DNA from: a virus
Strand: one strand, 5' to 3'
IMG/VR virus record: IMGVR_UViG_3300036398_002654
Span: 1-62,937 of that record
Length of the DNA: 62,937 nucleotides
Below the pieces are notes generated by a model that was not told the DNA's origin, made no database searches, and saw nothing but the letters and a program-made list of their open reading frames with translations. Both the position numbers and the translations under genes were made by a program. Below are positions 22,074-57,150 of this stretch, in pieces (within the stretch, counting starts at the first letter, position 1; each line of letters starts with the position of its first letter).

Positions 22074-22511
22074 TTAGTGCTTATGCTCCTCCAAATACTT
22101 AATCATACTTTCAATCACACTCACATTATCTCCAAGAAGTCCCATTGCTGTGTTGCAATTATGGCAAAGAAGTTTTCTATTCTTACCAGTTGTATGGCAA
22201 TGATCTACAACAAAATAATCAGTATTGTGCCTTCCACCAGGTTCTGTGGTATTACAAATAGCACACTGGTTATTTTGTTCTGCAAGCATTAATTCATAAT
22301 CTTTTTGAGTAATGCCATACGTTCTTTTAAGGTGTTGTTCCCGATACTTAATGGGATCGTGATTTTCTTTAACTCTTTTTCTATCGCATTCTTTACAAGT
22401 TGAATGTCTAACCATACTGGTTTTATTTCTCAAATAAAAATCATCAATTGGTTTAGTAGTATCACAACTCTTACAATACTTAATTCCTTCTACCTGAATT
22501 GCTCTTGCCAT
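22074..22511 (-). CDS. endonuclease VII-like (His-Me) homing nuclease
   Basis: 145 residues. N-terminal zinc-type segment (KYCKSCDTTKPIDDFYLR, CKECDRKR), then the endonuclease VII core: YGITQKDYELMLAEQNNQCAI with CAIC, VVDHCHTTGKNRKLLCHNCN and NTAMGLLGDNV. It sits between psbA and psbD. In cyanophage S-PM2 a free-standing nuclease (F-CphI) occupies the same place and cuts intronless psbA; a similar homing role here is an inference. It has its own terminator/promoter element upstream at 22539-22572. Confidence 0.85.
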   Translation of the reverse strand: MARAIQVEGIKYCKSCDTTKPIDDFYLRNKTSMVRHSTCKECDRKRVKENHDPIKYREQHLKRTYGITQKDYELMLAEQNNQCAICNTTEPGGRHNTDYFVVDHCHTTGKNRKLLCHNCNTAMGLLGDNVSVIESMIKYLEEHKH

Positions 22512-22538: not shown

Positions 22539-22567
22539 ATTATATAGTAAAAAAGGGACTTTTGCAA
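22539..22567 (-). promoter_or_regulatory. sigma70-type promoter overlapping the psbA terminator
   Basis: TTGCAA (22567-22562), 17-bp spacer, TATAAT (22544-22539). The -35 begins in the terminator loop and the spacer contains its 3' stem arm and T-run. Would drive the endonuclease VII-like gene (start 22511). Confidence 0.6.
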
Positions 22568-22572
22568 GTCCC
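22549..22572 (-). terminator. intrinsic terminator of psbA
   Basis: Minus-strand GGGACTT/AAGTCCC 7-bp stem, GCAA loop, six T; 29 nt past the psbA stop. Confidence 0.8.
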
Positions 22573-22600
22573 CTTTTGATATTATTCTGTTTTTATTTTA

Positions 22601-23683
22601 TCAACCAATGGCAGGAGCAGTGAGAGCAACAGGTGTGCTTTCGGCAGCAGCAAGATCCAATGGGAAATTGTGAGCATTACGTTCATGCATCACTTCCATG
22701 CCCAGTCCAGCACGGTTAAGAACATCAGCCCAGGTGTTCAATACACGACCCTGAGAGTCAATGATGGACTGATTGAAATTAAAACCGTTAAGGTTAAAAG
22801 CCATCGTGGAAACACCAAGAGCGGTGAACCAGATGCCAACCACGGGCCAGGCAGCAAGGAAGAAGTGCAGCGAACGGGAGTTATTGAAGGAAGCATATTG
22901 GAAAATAAGGCGTCCGAAATAACCGTGAGCAGCAACGATGTTATAAGTCTCTTCTTCTTGACCGAACTTGTAACCATAGTTCTGTGACTCGTTCTCAGTG
23001 GTTTCACGAACCAGAGAAGAAGTTACCAGCGAACCGTGCATTGCACTGAACAGAGAACCACCGAAGACACCAGCAACTCCAAGCATGTGGAAGGGGTGCA
23101 TCAGGATGTTGTGCTCTGCCTGGAACACAAGCATGTAGTTGAAAGTACCAGAGATACCCAGGGGCATCGCATCAGAGAAAGAACCTTGACCGAAGGGATA
23201 GACCAGAAACACTGCGCTAGCAGCAGCAACGGGTGCGCTGTAAGCAACACAGATCCAAGGACGCATACCCAGACGATAAGAAAGTTCCCACTCACGACCC
23301 ATATAGGCGTAGATACCAATCAGGAAGTGGAACACAACCAGTTGGAAAGGCCCACCGTTGTAAAGCCACTCATCTAGGGAAGCAGCTTCCCAGATGGGGT
23401 AAAAGTGCAGTCCAATAGCATTGGACGAAGGAATCACAGCACCAGAGATGATGTTGTTTCCGTACATGAGTGAACCAGCAACGGGTTCACGGATACCATC
23501 AATGTCCACAGGGGGAGCACCGATGAATGCGATGATGAAACAAGTCGTAGCAGCAAGCAGGCAAGGAATCATCAGAACTCCGAACCAACCGACATAAAGA
23601 CGATTATCGGTTGAAGTAACCCAGTTGCAGAACTGTTCCCAAGTATTCGATTGTTGTTGACGTGAAGCAATTGAAGCAGTCAT
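22601..23683 (-). CDS. psbA: photosystem II D1 protein
   Basis: 360 residues, full length and intronless. Diagnostic blocks: [42 protein letters not shown], the [20 protein letters not shown] quinone/iron region, and the C-terminal [13 protein letters not shown] processing region with an [16 protein letters not shown] extension. The residue after GR in YMGREWELS is Glu, equivalent to Glu130 of high-light D1 forms. Preceded by a 160-nt structured leader and a TTGACA-17-TATGAT promoter fused to ATAAATA. Supplies D1, the fastest-turning photosystem II subunit, during infection. Confidence 0.98.
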
Positions 23684-23845
23684 TTGTTTAAAAGAGTAGT
23701 AAGACCATCAGGGAAATGGTGGTGATACTATTCCCCAGTCACCCTCAGACTGGGTATGAGAGACGTAATTTATACACCCATAGGTCTCGGTTAGCGGGTG
23801 TGAGCAATGTTAAGAATTATGAGAATTCCGTAACATTTGTTTACC
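23684..23845 (-). promoter_or_regulatory. structured psbA 5' leader
   Basis: About 160 nt between the promoter and the psbA ATG. On the minus strand it can form ACACCC/GGGTGT, then CCCAGTC/GACTGGG (7 bp, loop TGAGGGT), then ACCAT/ATGGT shortly before the start codon. No open frame of note. A cis-acting RNA controlling translation or stability is plausible; no known class was recognised. Confidence 0.45.
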
Positions 23846-28551: not shown

Positions 28552-28580
28552 ATTATATAGCAAAAATAAAGAGGGGTCAA
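28552..28580 (-). promoter_or_regulatory. sigma70-type promoter of the light/redox cassette
   Basis: TTGACC (28580-28575), 17-bp spacer, TATAAT (28557-28552), 28 nt before the hli start. The -35 lies in the loop and 3' stem arm of the glycan-cluster terminator. Confidence 0.65.
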
Positions 28581-28590
28581 GCCCCTCTTT
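28568..28590 (-). terminator. terminator of the 20-kb glycan cluster
   Basis: A 9-bp palindromic stem (AAAGAGGGG/CCCCTCTTT) with a 5-nt loop, then ATTTTTG on the minus strand. It follows the last cluster gene (stop at 28627). Confidence 0.75.
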
Positions 28591-28626: not shown

Positions 28627-29424
28627 CTATTTTCCTTCCCAACCAGGAGGAAGTCTACCAAGATATGGATCATAGTCAAAGAACGGATTCCAATCAGACA
28701 CATCAGCAGATTGATTTCTCCAAAACTGCCACAATCCATCGTGACTACTACGATGGAAAACATCAATATGAATATCGTGAATGTCAGATCCTAGATCAAT
28801 CTTATACAAGAACAAAGGAATAGAAAAAGTATTACCAGAGTTATAAATCAAGTCATCAGCAACTGCTCTTGGTTTAACACCCTGATCAAGTTTATACTTA
28901 TCACCACGACAATGAAGATTGATAAGTTTCTGTGCGTGATGGCGAGTGATCATATAACAAGCAGTTGAAAAGTCATTTACAAAACGACGATGCAACTGGA
29001 CGTGAACCTGTGCAGGATTAATAATAGCAAGTTGTATCACATCATAATCATAAGGAATTTTTGCATAGAAATCTTTCCAAGAAAATCCCCAATGAGTGAC
29101 AGTGCTTATGTCACAATCATCCTCCATCATTAAAGCACAAGGGGAATCAGAAGTTTCCAACCAATGCTTCATTGCTTTGAGATGTGAAGTTACACATCCA
29201 ACTTCACCAGAAGACATCATATCAGGATAACGACCTTTAAGAATATCTCCAAGATCTCTATCTCCCCGACCATCATAGGCAGAGATACGAGTATAATTTT
29301 CAACTTCCCAGTATTTAAACTGATCTTCCATAAACTGTGCTCTCTCTGGTTTTTCACCCAGATTGATGTAGTAAATGGGGGGAAGACCTTTGAGTTTATG
29401 TACCGATTTATTTTTATCCATCAT
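28627..29424 (-). CDS. GT25-family-like glycosyltransferase
   Basis: 265 residues. PIYYINLGEKPERAQFMEDQ at the N-terminus and GEVGCVTSHLKAMKHWLETS followed by CALMMEDDCDIS match glycosyltransferase family 25 (LPS/procollagen galactosyltransferases), with EDD as the likely metal-sugar site. Last gene of the glycan cluster, overlapping the upstream gene by ATGA. The C-terminal HIDVFHRSSHDGLWQ region is phage-specific. Donor likely a UDP-sugar. Confidence 0.78.
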   Translation of the reverse strand: MMDKNKSVHKLKGLPPIYYINLGEKPERAQFMEDQFKYWEVENYTRISAYDGRGDRDLGDILKGRYPDMMSSGEVGCVTSHLKAMKHWLETSDSPCALMMEDDCDISTVTHWGFSWKDFYAKIPYDYDVIQLAIINPAQVHVQLHRRFVNDFSTACYMITRHHAQKLINLHCRGDKYKLDQGVKPRAVADDLIYNSGNTFSIPLFLYKIDLGSDIHDIHIDVFHRSSHDGLWQFWRNQSADVSDWNPFFDYDPYLGRLPPGWEGK

Positions 29425-49273: not shown

Positions 49274-49302
49274 ATTATACTAAAAAAGATGGGTTTATGC
49301 AA
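49274..49302 (-). promoter_or_regulatory. promoter of the glycan cluster, fused to a terminator
   Basis: TTGCAT (49302-49297), 17-bp spacer, TATAAT (49279-49274), about 20 nt before the gmd start. The -35 lies at the loop of the terminator at 49282-49306. The -10 is perfect and the -35 matches 3/6. Confidence 0.5.
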
Positions 49303-49306
49303 CCCA
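49282..49306 (-). terminator. intrinsic terminator just before gmd
   Basis: Minus-strand TGGGTT/AACCCA 6-bp stem, loop GCATA, then TCTTTTTT. It ends the upstream small-gene operon or attenuates read-through into gmd. Confidence 0.65.
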
Positions 49307-49444
49307 CCTCTGTAACTCAGGCTCGCCACCAATTCTTTAACTGGAAATTGGAAACCAGGCGGGAGAGAGTCCCATCCGCACCACTTGCTCTTGAGAAAAG
49401 CAAGAAAACAATAGGGTCATATTTGACTCCACCACTTAGTTTTA
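49307..49444 (-). ncRNA. structured leader upstream of gmd (candidate)
   Basis: On the minus strand, hairpins occur one after another: CTTAGTTT/AAACTAAG (8 bp, overlapping the 49445 stop), CTTGCT/AGCAAG, GGG/CCC around ACTCTCT, and CCAATT/AATTGG, ending at the intrinsic terminator. No good open frame. A riboswitch- or attenuator-like leader of the GDP-fucose genes is possible; wcaG-type RNAs are known in cyanophages but the class could not be confirmed by eye. Confidence 0.35.
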
Positions 49445-49669
49445 CTAAACTAAGAAAAGTTGGGTTAACTTTGATATCTCGGTAATACCAAAGAATGCAC
49501 ATAAGAATAGTACATCCCAAAGTTTAAGTTTAATAGCAAAAGGCACTGTGAGTAAACCTCCAATAACCTTTATTAATAAACCATATTTAAATTCTCCCCA
49601 TAACATAGTTTGATAACCAATTATAAGAAGAATATTTCCAATCCACCGAAGTAAATCAGATTTTGACAT
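49445..49669 (-). CDS. small membrane protein
   Basis: 74 residues with two to three hydrophobic helices (LLRWIGNILLIIGYQTMLWG, LLIKVIGGLLTVPFAIKL, VLFLCAFFGITEISKL). Last gene of the operon starting at 50165. Function unknown. A 47-nt gap with a CGGATGGACT motif precedes it. Confidence 0.65.
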   Translation of the reverse strand: MSKSDLLRWIGNILLIIGYQTMLWGEFKYGLLIKVIGGLLTVPFAIKLKLWDVLFLCAFFGITEISKLTQLFLV

Positions 49670-51128: not shown

Positions 51129-52161
51129 GATGTCCACCGAACATATAACGCATTCCGTTTAGGATCTTTGCTCCGAACGATCCGAGATTGCGTGAGTTAA
51201 ATCTTTCAAATAGTGCAGTAGTAATGACAGGAGCGGGAACCCCCAAATCCACAGCGGCAGAAACAGTCCAACGACCCTCACCACTGTCGGATACGCCTCC
51301 AGAGAACTGTTTAAGCTCACCATCCCTGCGTAACACATCAGCAGTAAGATCAAGTAACCAAGACCCAACCACGCTACCACGACGCCACAACTCAGCAACC
51401 TCAGCAACATCAATATCATAACAATAGGATTCTGGATCCGCCATTGGGGCAACCTCTGCATCTCCTTCTCTGACATACTGAGCACCTGCATTAGCGTTCT
51501 TGAGAATATTGAATCCTTCGGCATATGCCTGCATAATGCCGTATTCGATTCCATTGTGAACCATCTTCACAAAATGTCCTGCCCCTGGTCCGCCACAATG
51601 TAACCAACCAAACTCAGCAGAGGTTACGTCTGAGTTAAATTGAGTCCTGGGGGCAGCGTCAATTCCTGGTGAGAGGGCATCAAAAATGCGCGAACAAGTG
51701 GCGACTGCAGTATTTCCACCTCCAACCATAAGACAGTATCCACGATCCAGACCATAAACACCACCGCTAGTGCCACAATCAATATATTGGATACCCAACT
51801 TTGCCAAACGTTCTGCTCTTTTCCTACTGTCTTTAAAATTGCTATTGCCATGATCAATAATAATATCTCCTTCGTCACAATATCGTAGTAACTCATTGAT
51901 TGTCTCCTCTACTGTTTCTGCTGGTACAACCATCATAAAGATGCCTGGTCCATATTTGTCTGATACTCCACTCTGAGTATGTTTTACTACCTGAGCAAGG
52001 CTTTGTATAGAAGTTGTAACACCGTTAACATATCCGTTTTCATATGCTTCTTGTGCTTTCTCATAATTCCTCCTATAACCCCAAACCTCAATACCTGCTT
52101 TCATCATTCGACGGGACATTCCTTCTCCCATCCGTCCTAGTCCGATTAATCCTACTTTCAT
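51118..52161 (-). CDS. gnd: 6-phosphogluconate dehydrogenase, decarboxylating
   Basis: 347 residues from MKVGLIGLGRMGEGMSRRMM at 52161 (ATGA overlap with the upstream mini-gene). GLIGLGRMG binds NAD(P), IDHGNSNFKDS and YIDCGTSGGVYGLDRGYCLM form the substrate site, and CGGPGAGHFVKMVHNGIEYG holds the catalytic Lys. Short form, as in GndA/YqeC-type enzymes (about 300-350 rather than 470 residues). Makes NADPH and ribulose-5-phosphate, supporting nucleotide synthesis during infection. Confidence 0.95.
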   Translation of the reverse strand: MKVGLIGLGRMGEGMSRRMMKAGIEVWGYRRNYEKAQEAYENGYVNGVTTSIQSLAQVVKHTQSGVSDKYGPGIFMMVVPAETVEETINELLRYCDEGDIIIDHGNSNFKDSRKRAERLAKLGIQYIDCGTSGGVYGLDRGYCLMVGGGNTAVATCSRIFDALSPGIDAAPRTQFNSDVTSAEFGWLHCGGPGAGHFVKMVHNGIEYGIMQAYAEGFNILKNANAGAQYVREGDAEVAPMADPESYCYDIDVAEVAELWRRGSVVGSWLLDLTADVLRRDGELKQFSGGVSDSGEGRWTVSAAVDLGVPAPVITTALFERFNSRNLGSFGAKILNGMRYMFGGHHVR

Positions 52162-53790: not shown

Positions 53791-53819
53791 ATAATACATT
53801 AAAAAGGGGGTTTTGTCAA
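53791..53819 (-). promoter_or_regulatory. promoter fused to the pstS terminator
   Basis: TTGACA (53819-53814) in the terminator loop, 17-bp spacer, TATTAT (53796-53791), 22 nt before the 53769 start. Confidence 0.65.
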
Positions 53820-53825
53820 CCCCCC
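53801..53825 (-). terminator. intrinsic terminator of pstS
   Basis: Minus-strand stem GGGGGTT/AACCCCC with loop GACA and five T, 10 nt past the pstS stop. Confidence 0.8.
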
Positions 53826-53833
53826 TATGTATG

Positions 53834-54796
53834 TCAGTTACCGATGCGACCAACAGCAAGACGTGCTTTGTTCAGAACGCTACCAGAAAGAGGAACATAT
53901 CCAAGATCATCAGCAATAGATTGTGCCTTTGTGCTTAGAGCATAGTTAATAGCGGCACGAATATCATCTGCCTTTGCACCATTACCTTTCTTATAAGCAA
54001 GAATCCAAGTCAAAGTAGAAATGGGATATGCATTTACACCAGCAGGATTGGGGTTCTCGCCAGCAAGGTTTGCATCCAGAGTAATACCATTCAGAGCAGC
54101 AGAACCAGTTGCAGCAGAAGGTCCAACAAACTTACCTGCCTTGTTTTGAAGAACTGCTGCTTGGAGTTTGTTAGCACGAACAAATCCAGTATTCACATAG
54201 CCAATCGCACCAGCAGTGTTCTTGATGGTTCCAGCAACACCTTCGTTACCTTTTGAACCAACACCAGTAGGCCACTTGACTGCCTTACCAACACCAGGAG
54301 CCCAACCACCGAATGCATCCAGAGAGTTGGTGAATGCAAAGGTAGTTCCAGATCCATCAGAACGATACACCACTTGAATAGGACCAGCGGAGCAACCAAG
54401 TGCTTTCCAATCCTTAATGCGTCCAGAGAATACATCAACGGTTTGCTTCTGGGTCAGTTTTAGTTTGCATCCAGGTTTGTTATAAGCGACAGCAATCGTT
54501 CCACCCACCATAGGGATTTGAACGACACCACGCTTCACCTTTGCTGCTTCCGATGCTTTGATCGGTTCATCAGACGCACCAAAATCGACGGTCCCAGCGA
54601 TGAACTGACGAACACCAGCACCAGAACCAACAGATTGGTAATTAACACGATTTCCAGTAGACGAAGCAAAATCCTGGAACCATCGTTGATAAATTGGGGC
54701 GGGAAACGTAGCTCCAGCACCATTCAGAGCAGGTCCAGCAAGAGCAGCAGCAGGAGCAGCAACCAGACCAATAGCAATAAGATTTTTGAGTTTCAT
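53834..54796 (-). CDS. pstS: phosphate ABC transporter substrate-binding protein
   Basis: 320 residues from MKLKNLIAIGLVAAPAAALA at 54796, a clear Sec signal peptide. GAGATFPAPIYQRWFQDF, YQSVGSGAGVRQFIAGTVDF, VVYRSDGSGTTFAFTNSL and PISTLTWILAYKKGNG are PstS hallmarks with the phosphate-binding Ser/Asp/Arg residues. Phage PstS is thought to raise phosphate uptake in starved hosts. A PHO-box-like repeat and a -10 lie upstream, and a terminator follows. Confidence 0.95.
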   Translation of the reverse strand: MKLKNLIAIGLVAAPAAALAGPALNGAGATFPAPIYQRWFQDFASSTGNRVNYQSVGSGAGVRQFIAGTVDFGASDEPIKASEAAKVKRGVVQIPMVGGTIAVAYNKPGCKLKLTQKQTVDVFSGRIKDWKALGCSAGPIQVVYRSDGSGTTFAFTNSLDAFGGWAPGVGKAVKWPTGVGSKGNEGVAGTIKNTAGAIGYVNTGFVRANKLQAAVLQNKAGKFVGPSAATGSAALNGITLDANLAGENPNPAGVNAYPISTLTWILAYKKGNGAKADDIRAAINYALSTKAQSIADDLGYVPLSGSVLNKARLAVGRIGN

Positions 54797-54832
54797 AAAA
54801 AGTTTTTTGGAAGTGAATTGACTTCGTAAGTA

Positions 54833-54877
54833 ATAATACTGGAAGAGAACCTTAAAGTCCACTAAGATTTGGTTAAG
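54833..54877 (-). promoter_or_regulatory. candidate PHO box and -10 of pstS
   Basis: On the minus strand, three 8-mers spaced by 3 nt: CTTAACCA (54877-54870), CTTAGTGG (54866-54859) and TTAAGGTT (54855-54848); then TATTAT (54838-54833), 9 nt further. Cyanobacterial PHO boxes are CTTAACCT-like 8-mers with 3-nt gaps. Only the first unit is close to consensus. Confidence 0.5.
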
Positions 54878-57098: not shown

Positions 57099-57127
57099 AT
57101 TATAGATGGGAGGAGGGCATCTGTCAA
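57099..57127 (-). promoter_or_regulatory. consensus promoter of the tRNA array in a hairpin loop
   Basis: TTGACA (57127-57122), 17-bp spacer, TATAAT (57104-57099). The -35 forms most of the loop of a 9-bp hairpin (57110-57136, GAGGGGGGC/GCCCTCCTC with one G-U) just after the lysozyme gene. 18 nt before tRNA-Arg. Confidence 0.72.
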
Positions 57128-57150
57128 GCCCCCCTCACCTATTCAGTTTG

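Follow-up and report, generated by a model that had tools for sequence, protein, structure and literature searches.

The sequence examined here raises the question of whether a bacteriophage gene can be closed and the next one opened by the same few dozen bases. The window, i.e. the whole analysed stretch of 62,937 bases of a virus record, resembles Synechococcus and Prochlorococcus phages in its psbA/psbD region. Given this likeness and the presence of psbA, psbD, pstS, ferredoxin and hli-like genes, we take it to be a fragment of a T4-like cyanophage.

Hairpins and promoter boxes in the window

Five minus-strand sites were folded and scanned for hairpins, T-runs and promoter boxes (Table 1). 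According to the original prediction they share one design, namely a terminator-like hairpin whose loop contains TTGnnn, followed at exactly 17 bp by TATAAT or TATTAT. This is true of the sites at 22539, 28552, 49274 and 53791, each of which has a perfect stem of 9-12 bp (dG -13.2 to -15.0 kcal/mol), a T-run, and TATAAT or TATTAT exactly 17 bp past TTGnnn. The hairpin at 57099 (-17 kcal/mol, centred on TTGACA) is followed by CCATC in place of the T-run and is therefore not terminator-like. The GC-rich stem and T-run of an intrinsic terminator are thus found at four of the five sites, and sigma-70 -35 and -10 boxes with a 17-bp spacer (16-18 bp being allowed) at all five, so that the predicted distance is exact throughout. 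Placement of the -35 within the loop applies to 28552; at 22539, 49274 and 53791 the uppermost stem pairs include the first two T of TTG, and the box consequently straddles stem and loop. The -35 boxes of 22539 (TTGCAA) and 49274 (TTGCAT) match only 4/6 consensus positions, which counts against reading them as promoters.

Table 1. Predicted boundary elements of the window and the genes and RNA beside them (dG in kcal/mol)
Feature	Position	Strand	Setting	Remarks
Terminator hairpin AAAAGGGGACTT-GCAA-AAGTCCCTTTTT	22550..22577	-	after psbA	dG -15.0, T-run
Promoter TTGCAA-17-TATAAT	22539..22567	-	before endonuclease VII-like gene
Terminator hairpin AAAGAGGGG-CTTGA-CCCCTCTTT	28568..28590	-	after glycosyltransferase gene	dG -13.2, T-run
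Promoter TTGACC-17-TATAAT	28552..28580	-	before hli-like gene
Terminator hairpin AGAGGTGGGTT-GCATA-AACCCATCTTT	49285..49311	-	after wcaG RNA	dG -14.0, T-run
Promoter TTGCAT-17-TATAAT	49274..49302	-	before GDP-mannose dehydratase-like gene
Terminator hairpin AGGGGGGTT-GACAA-AACCCCCTT	53804..53826	-	after pstS	dG -14.3, T-run
Promoter TTGACA-17-TATTAT	53791..53819	-	before small MSLIS... gene
GC-rich hairpin around TTGACA, no T-run	57110..57136	-		not a terminator by the criteria used
Promoter TTGACA-17-TATAAT	57099..57127	-	facing tRNA-Arg and tRNA cluster
psbA	22601-23683		upstream of 22539 element	phrog_182
Endonuclease VII-like gene	22074-22511		downstream of 22539 element	PF02945
Glycosyltransferase gene	28627-29424		upstream of 28552 element	phrog_2835
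hli-like gene	ATG 28524, end 28315		downstream of 28552 element	HLI motif by sequence
GDP-mannose dehydratase-like gene	ATG 49253		downstream of 49274 element	phrog_540 nucleotide-sugar epimerase
pstS-like gene	53834-54862		upstream of 53791 element	phrog_5385
Small gene MSLIS...	ATG 53769		downstream of 53791 element	GGAGG site
tRNA-Arg, then tRNA cluster	57082-57007		downstream of 57099 promoter
wcaG RNA (RF01761), candidate riboswitch	49315..49412	-		102 bits vs gathering score 42

The hli-like gene matches PF00504 weakly, with a score under the family cut-off. Two further features were noted around the photosystem genes of the window: a PhotoRC-II RNA (RF01717) upstream of psbA (23720-23812, minus strand), and a late-promoter-like sequence, AAATAAATA (20953-20920, minus strand), lying directly before the hairpin that follows psbD and is itself followed by a T-run and an ATG.

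Frequency of the composite and its spread

The comparison with shuffled controls proposed in the original prediction gave a divided answer. The bare pattern TTG-N20-TAnnnT is not enriched in the window (79 occurrences vs 73 expected from shuffles), but the complete terminator-promoter composite was observed four times, compared with an average of 0.03 per shuffle over 200 dinucleotide shuffles, and at stricter settings it was absent from all 200. The proposed survey of cyanophage terminator loops had a clear outcome. About 3.4 Mb of related cyanophage contigs, fetched via four proteins without use of the motif, contained 1004 terminators, 608 of them non-redundant. Among these 608, -35 starts cluster at loop offsets -3 to +1 (63 matches, 56 of them with spacer 17), and none occurs at the neighbouring offsets outside this range. 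Terminators with a TTGA loop are followed by a -10 at exactly spacer 17 in 53/72 cases, compared with 49/536 for all others.

A same-strand ORF of at least 25 aa starts within 130 nt of 63 of the 72 loop elements. Crude ORF calls did not discriminate between same-strand and convergent junctions (loop class at 54/293 and 6/36, respectively), and in three of the six convergent loop-class cases a missed small gene was found. The isolates differ in the number of loop-class matches, with five in S-SRM01, one convincing match in S-PM2 and none in Syn9.

When the hairpin was fixed and the gap to the -10 left free over 26 spacings (GGGGCTTGACCCC-N{5,30}-TATAAT), spacer 17 accounted for 107 of 111 viral matches and for 10 of 54 in bacterial and archaeal genomes (257 Gb). 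Two of these ten, in the Clostridia contigs L463 and L446, satisfy the terminator criteria, with hairpins of -21.6 and -15.4 kcal/mol, respectively, a T-run and spacer 17. The view that the element is exclusive to phages was consequently rejected; the design is only far commoner in them.

The wcaG RNA and the element at 49274

The wcaG RNA of the window sits a few nt upstream of the hairpin at 49285-49311. An aptamer directly before a terminator is seen here and in 64 of 67 non-redundant wcaG-like relatives from the fetched loci: the loop element follows directly in 59, and a terminator only in five more. The promoter is missing after the wcaG terminator in, for example, L254, L592 and L307. 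Alignment of 56 elements revealed 59 stem cells changed on both sides, compared with 17 in shuffles, and 99.6% of the stem cells are paired (41-67% in slid controls). TTGCA is invariant, as are the T-run and the -10 for the most part. Conservation thus concerns structure in the stem and sequence in the promoter.

A promoter directly upstream of the wcaG RNAs was found in only 1/64 cases (background 5%), and the RNAs lie mostly 0-40 nt past an upstream stop codon. The lack of a promoter of their own, together with this position, points to the terminator as the expression platform of the transcript bearing wcaG, or as its 3' end. The orphan wcaG RNA thereby gains a concrete expression-platform candidate. 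It is a real possibility, although one that we lean slightly against, that the 49274 hairpin is foremost the expression platform of a wcaG riboswitch, and the promoter a bypass by which the gene stays on despite termination at the switch. Besides the position of the terminators and the scarcity of upstream promoters, this explanation is favoured by the gathering score being reached at all 12 loci tested, and by the literature, in which wcaG is a probable riboswitch of exopolysaccharide genes (PMC2864571). It is weakened by the search for an antiterminator, which gave no clear alternative pairing (5'-arm pairing inside wcaG of 0.60 vs 0.52 for shuffled arms), and by two wcaG RNAs within tRNA clusters (L129 and L383), where a tRNA and not a protein gene comes next; moreover, it accounts for only one of the five sites.

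Joining the two functions, we propose quite tentatively, as a rather unlikely reading, that the candidate riboswitch acts via a conserved terminator that doubles as promoter of the very gene it controls. If this were true, one 40-bp element would stop operon read-through under ligand control and restart the gene independently. A conserved hairpin and TGGTGGAGTCAAnATGACCC were also observed just 5' of RF01761 (about 49413-49450 of the window, minus strand, and 5' of other wcaG RNAs), which suggests that the actual RNA is longer than the Rfam model.

Junctions at pstS, glycosyltransferase and hli genes

At junctions chosen by gene homology alone, without the motif, the loop element is present at 31/46 non-redundant pstS ends and 22/50 non-redundant glycosyltransferase ends. 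Most glycosyltransferase ends without the element retain the hli promoter and are missing the hairpin. Hairpin strength is bimodal at 58 non-redundant hli promoters: 30 reach -8 kcal/mol or stronger, and nearly all the remaining ones are near zero. About half of the orthologous hli promoters thus have no hairpin, and it is not essential there. In the hli arms, 52% of own arm pairs are stable, compared with 19% of swapped pairs.

The 17-bp spacer is kept equally well in the orthologous hli promoters that have no hairpin. Its constancy is therefore not in itself a sign of selection, contrary to what the original prediction had read from it. A spacer of exactly 17 bp is simply the usual optimum for sigma-70, and it is the overlap of hairpin and promoter that is selected. 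On this comparative evidence, the selected feature is a compensating hairpin superposed on a fixed putative promoter. Two functions under selection are here separable by evolution: hli loci hold on to the promoter, with a labile hairpin, and wcaG loci have an almost invariant terminator, with the promoter lost in a few cases.

psbA ends were considered as the general home of the element and rejected, as only 2/69 non-redundant ones belong to the loop class; the 22539 site is thus unusual. We also observed that the stretch from the -10 to the ATG of hli genes (28551-28525 of the window, minus strand, and other hli leaders) contains a well-conserved inverted repeat of the TTGTAA...TTACAA type, which is possibly a regulator site.

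Upstream of the hli promoter region there are genes of at least seven unrelated families, in a set fetched partly with and partly without the motif. Where the element precedes hli, the upstream neighbours are glycosyltransferase, pstS, outer-membrane-like and other unrelated genes; travel of the element with gene cassettes was seen for hli only. This variety of neighbours, and three nearly identical copies of the element in S-SRM01 (at 52021, 56773 and 61559), would fit a composite kept mainly for the short shared ends that it offers to recombination partners, as proposed for coliphage PeSLs (see below). We consider this explanation possible but doubtful: the elements of the window are not copies of each other (they share no repeat of at least 28 nt and local alignment scores are low), and compensating stem changes erase shared sequence yet keep the structure.

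Proposed mode of action

The predicted composite is real, widespread in cyanophages and evolutionarily maintained, as judged from the sequence comparisons described above. These loci probably represent boundary elements of T4-like cyanophages that combine terminator and promoter, an intrinsic terminator being folded onto a sigma-70 promoter. The terminator of the upstream gene would share bases with a host-type promoter of the downstream gene, the -35 being the hairpin loop, or the stem top plus loop, and the 17-bp spacer being taken up by the 3' arm and the T-run, with the -10 next. Upstream transcripts would end inside the spacer. Starting 6-9 nt past the -10 and so beyond the hairpin, the downstream transcript would not carry the terminator. 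At 49274, the terminator would occupy the expected position of the expression platform of the candidate riboswitch.

Stop and start would overlap within about 45 bp, and the earlier claim of a compact boundary element under selection rather than a product of chance is supported. In cyanophage Syn9, middle genes have promoters of the host type. We infer that the hairpin works as a terminator, that the promoter is used by host RNA polymerase, and that the advantage lies in insulating short, mobile gene units within a small space. In tightly packed phage genes, stop and start may thus be fitted into the same DNA, and the arrangement provides a simple rule for locating transcription-unit borders in cyanophage genomes and metagenomes.

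An alternative is that the polymerase, having released its RNA at the T-run, stays on the DNA over the promoter and restarts there, so that upstream transcription feeds the downstream gene. Intrinsic termination in vitro mostly leaves the E. coli RNA polymerase on the DNA, and in 37-55% of terminations the enzyme restarts at a promoter nearby; restart is expected by the authors to depend on the terminator-promoter distance (PMC6978380), which in our elements is about zero. We nevertheless regard such coupling as unlikely, since this evidence is in vitro only and the hairpin is dispensable for orthologous hli promoters. It is very improbable that the inverted repeats are regulator binding sites at the -35 instead of terminators: their centre, the -35, is a common place for an operator, but the 38 distinct arm pairs, unlike an operator, differ widely while remaining complementary, and the T-run is on one strand only; this reading was rejected. 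Coincidence, with AT-rich DNA past terminators mimicking a -10 and loops happening to contain TTG, has a practically negligible probability and was likewise rejected on the shuffle, TTGA-loop and free-gap counts, although shuffled sequence has as many promoter-like matches when these are counted alone.

Comparison with known systems

The nearest known relatives are the PeSLs (promoter early stem-loops), which were reportedly first described by Arbiol 2010 and Comeau 2014. As summarised in PMC4503421 and PMC3950731, they are elements of T4-type phages in which, as in ours, a host-type sigma-70 promoter and a stem-loop are fused in one short intergenic element, linked to the shuffling of gene cassettes. 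The cyanophage elements likewise have a sigma-70-like promoter overlapping an intergenic stem-loop. The many similar copies per genome typical of PeSLs are not seen in the window; S-SRM01 has three. When PeSLs were sought in S-PM2, only a promoter and separate stem-loops, at low density, were noted (PMC4503421).

The register also differs. In RB49, T4 and KVP40, as scanned here, most hairpins lie within the spacer or surround the -10, and a T-run is usually missing, whereas the hairpins of the cyanophage elements surround the -35 and are followed by a T-run that takes up the spacer; the RB49-type position (spacer or -10 in the loop) is not the one that they occupy. A sequence whose spacer contains a hairpin, as is the case in RB49, was noted elsewhere in the window (TTGACATAATATTCATTATGTCTTATACT, 56757-56729, minus strand), beginning at the final base of tRNA-Thr, and a near-identical copy is present in S-SRM01 at 184631.

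A second cyanophage arrangement is found at psbA/psbD ends, where the promoter is placed flush before the hairpin (L082-L161; S-PM2 136594 and 138858; Syn9 168293; S-SRM01 209760). Between the -10 and the stem there are only 0-3 nt, and an extended -10 (TGATATAAT) may include the TGA stop codon. A transcript from such a promoter would start inside the stem and be unable to form the hairpin.

Other systems are similar in part. An intrinsic terminator with a separate promoter also stops one unit and starts the next, but the two signals stand side by side, whereas those of the cyanophages share the same bases. Transcription-terminating riboswitches, comparable with 49274 only, likewise have a structured leader RNA directly before an intrinsic terminator; at 49274, however, an antiterminator was not found and the terminator carries a promoter. 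The PeSL-like motifs of the haloarchaeal virus HGTV-1 also combine a promoter box with an inverted repeat before many genes, and are set apart by their description as an archaeal TATA-box type (PMC3950731). Composite promoter-terminators are therefore a kind already known from PeSLs, whereas the cyanophage register, with the -35 in the loop and the T-run in the spacer, is new, and with it the PeSL idea widens to include cyanophages, in a different form.
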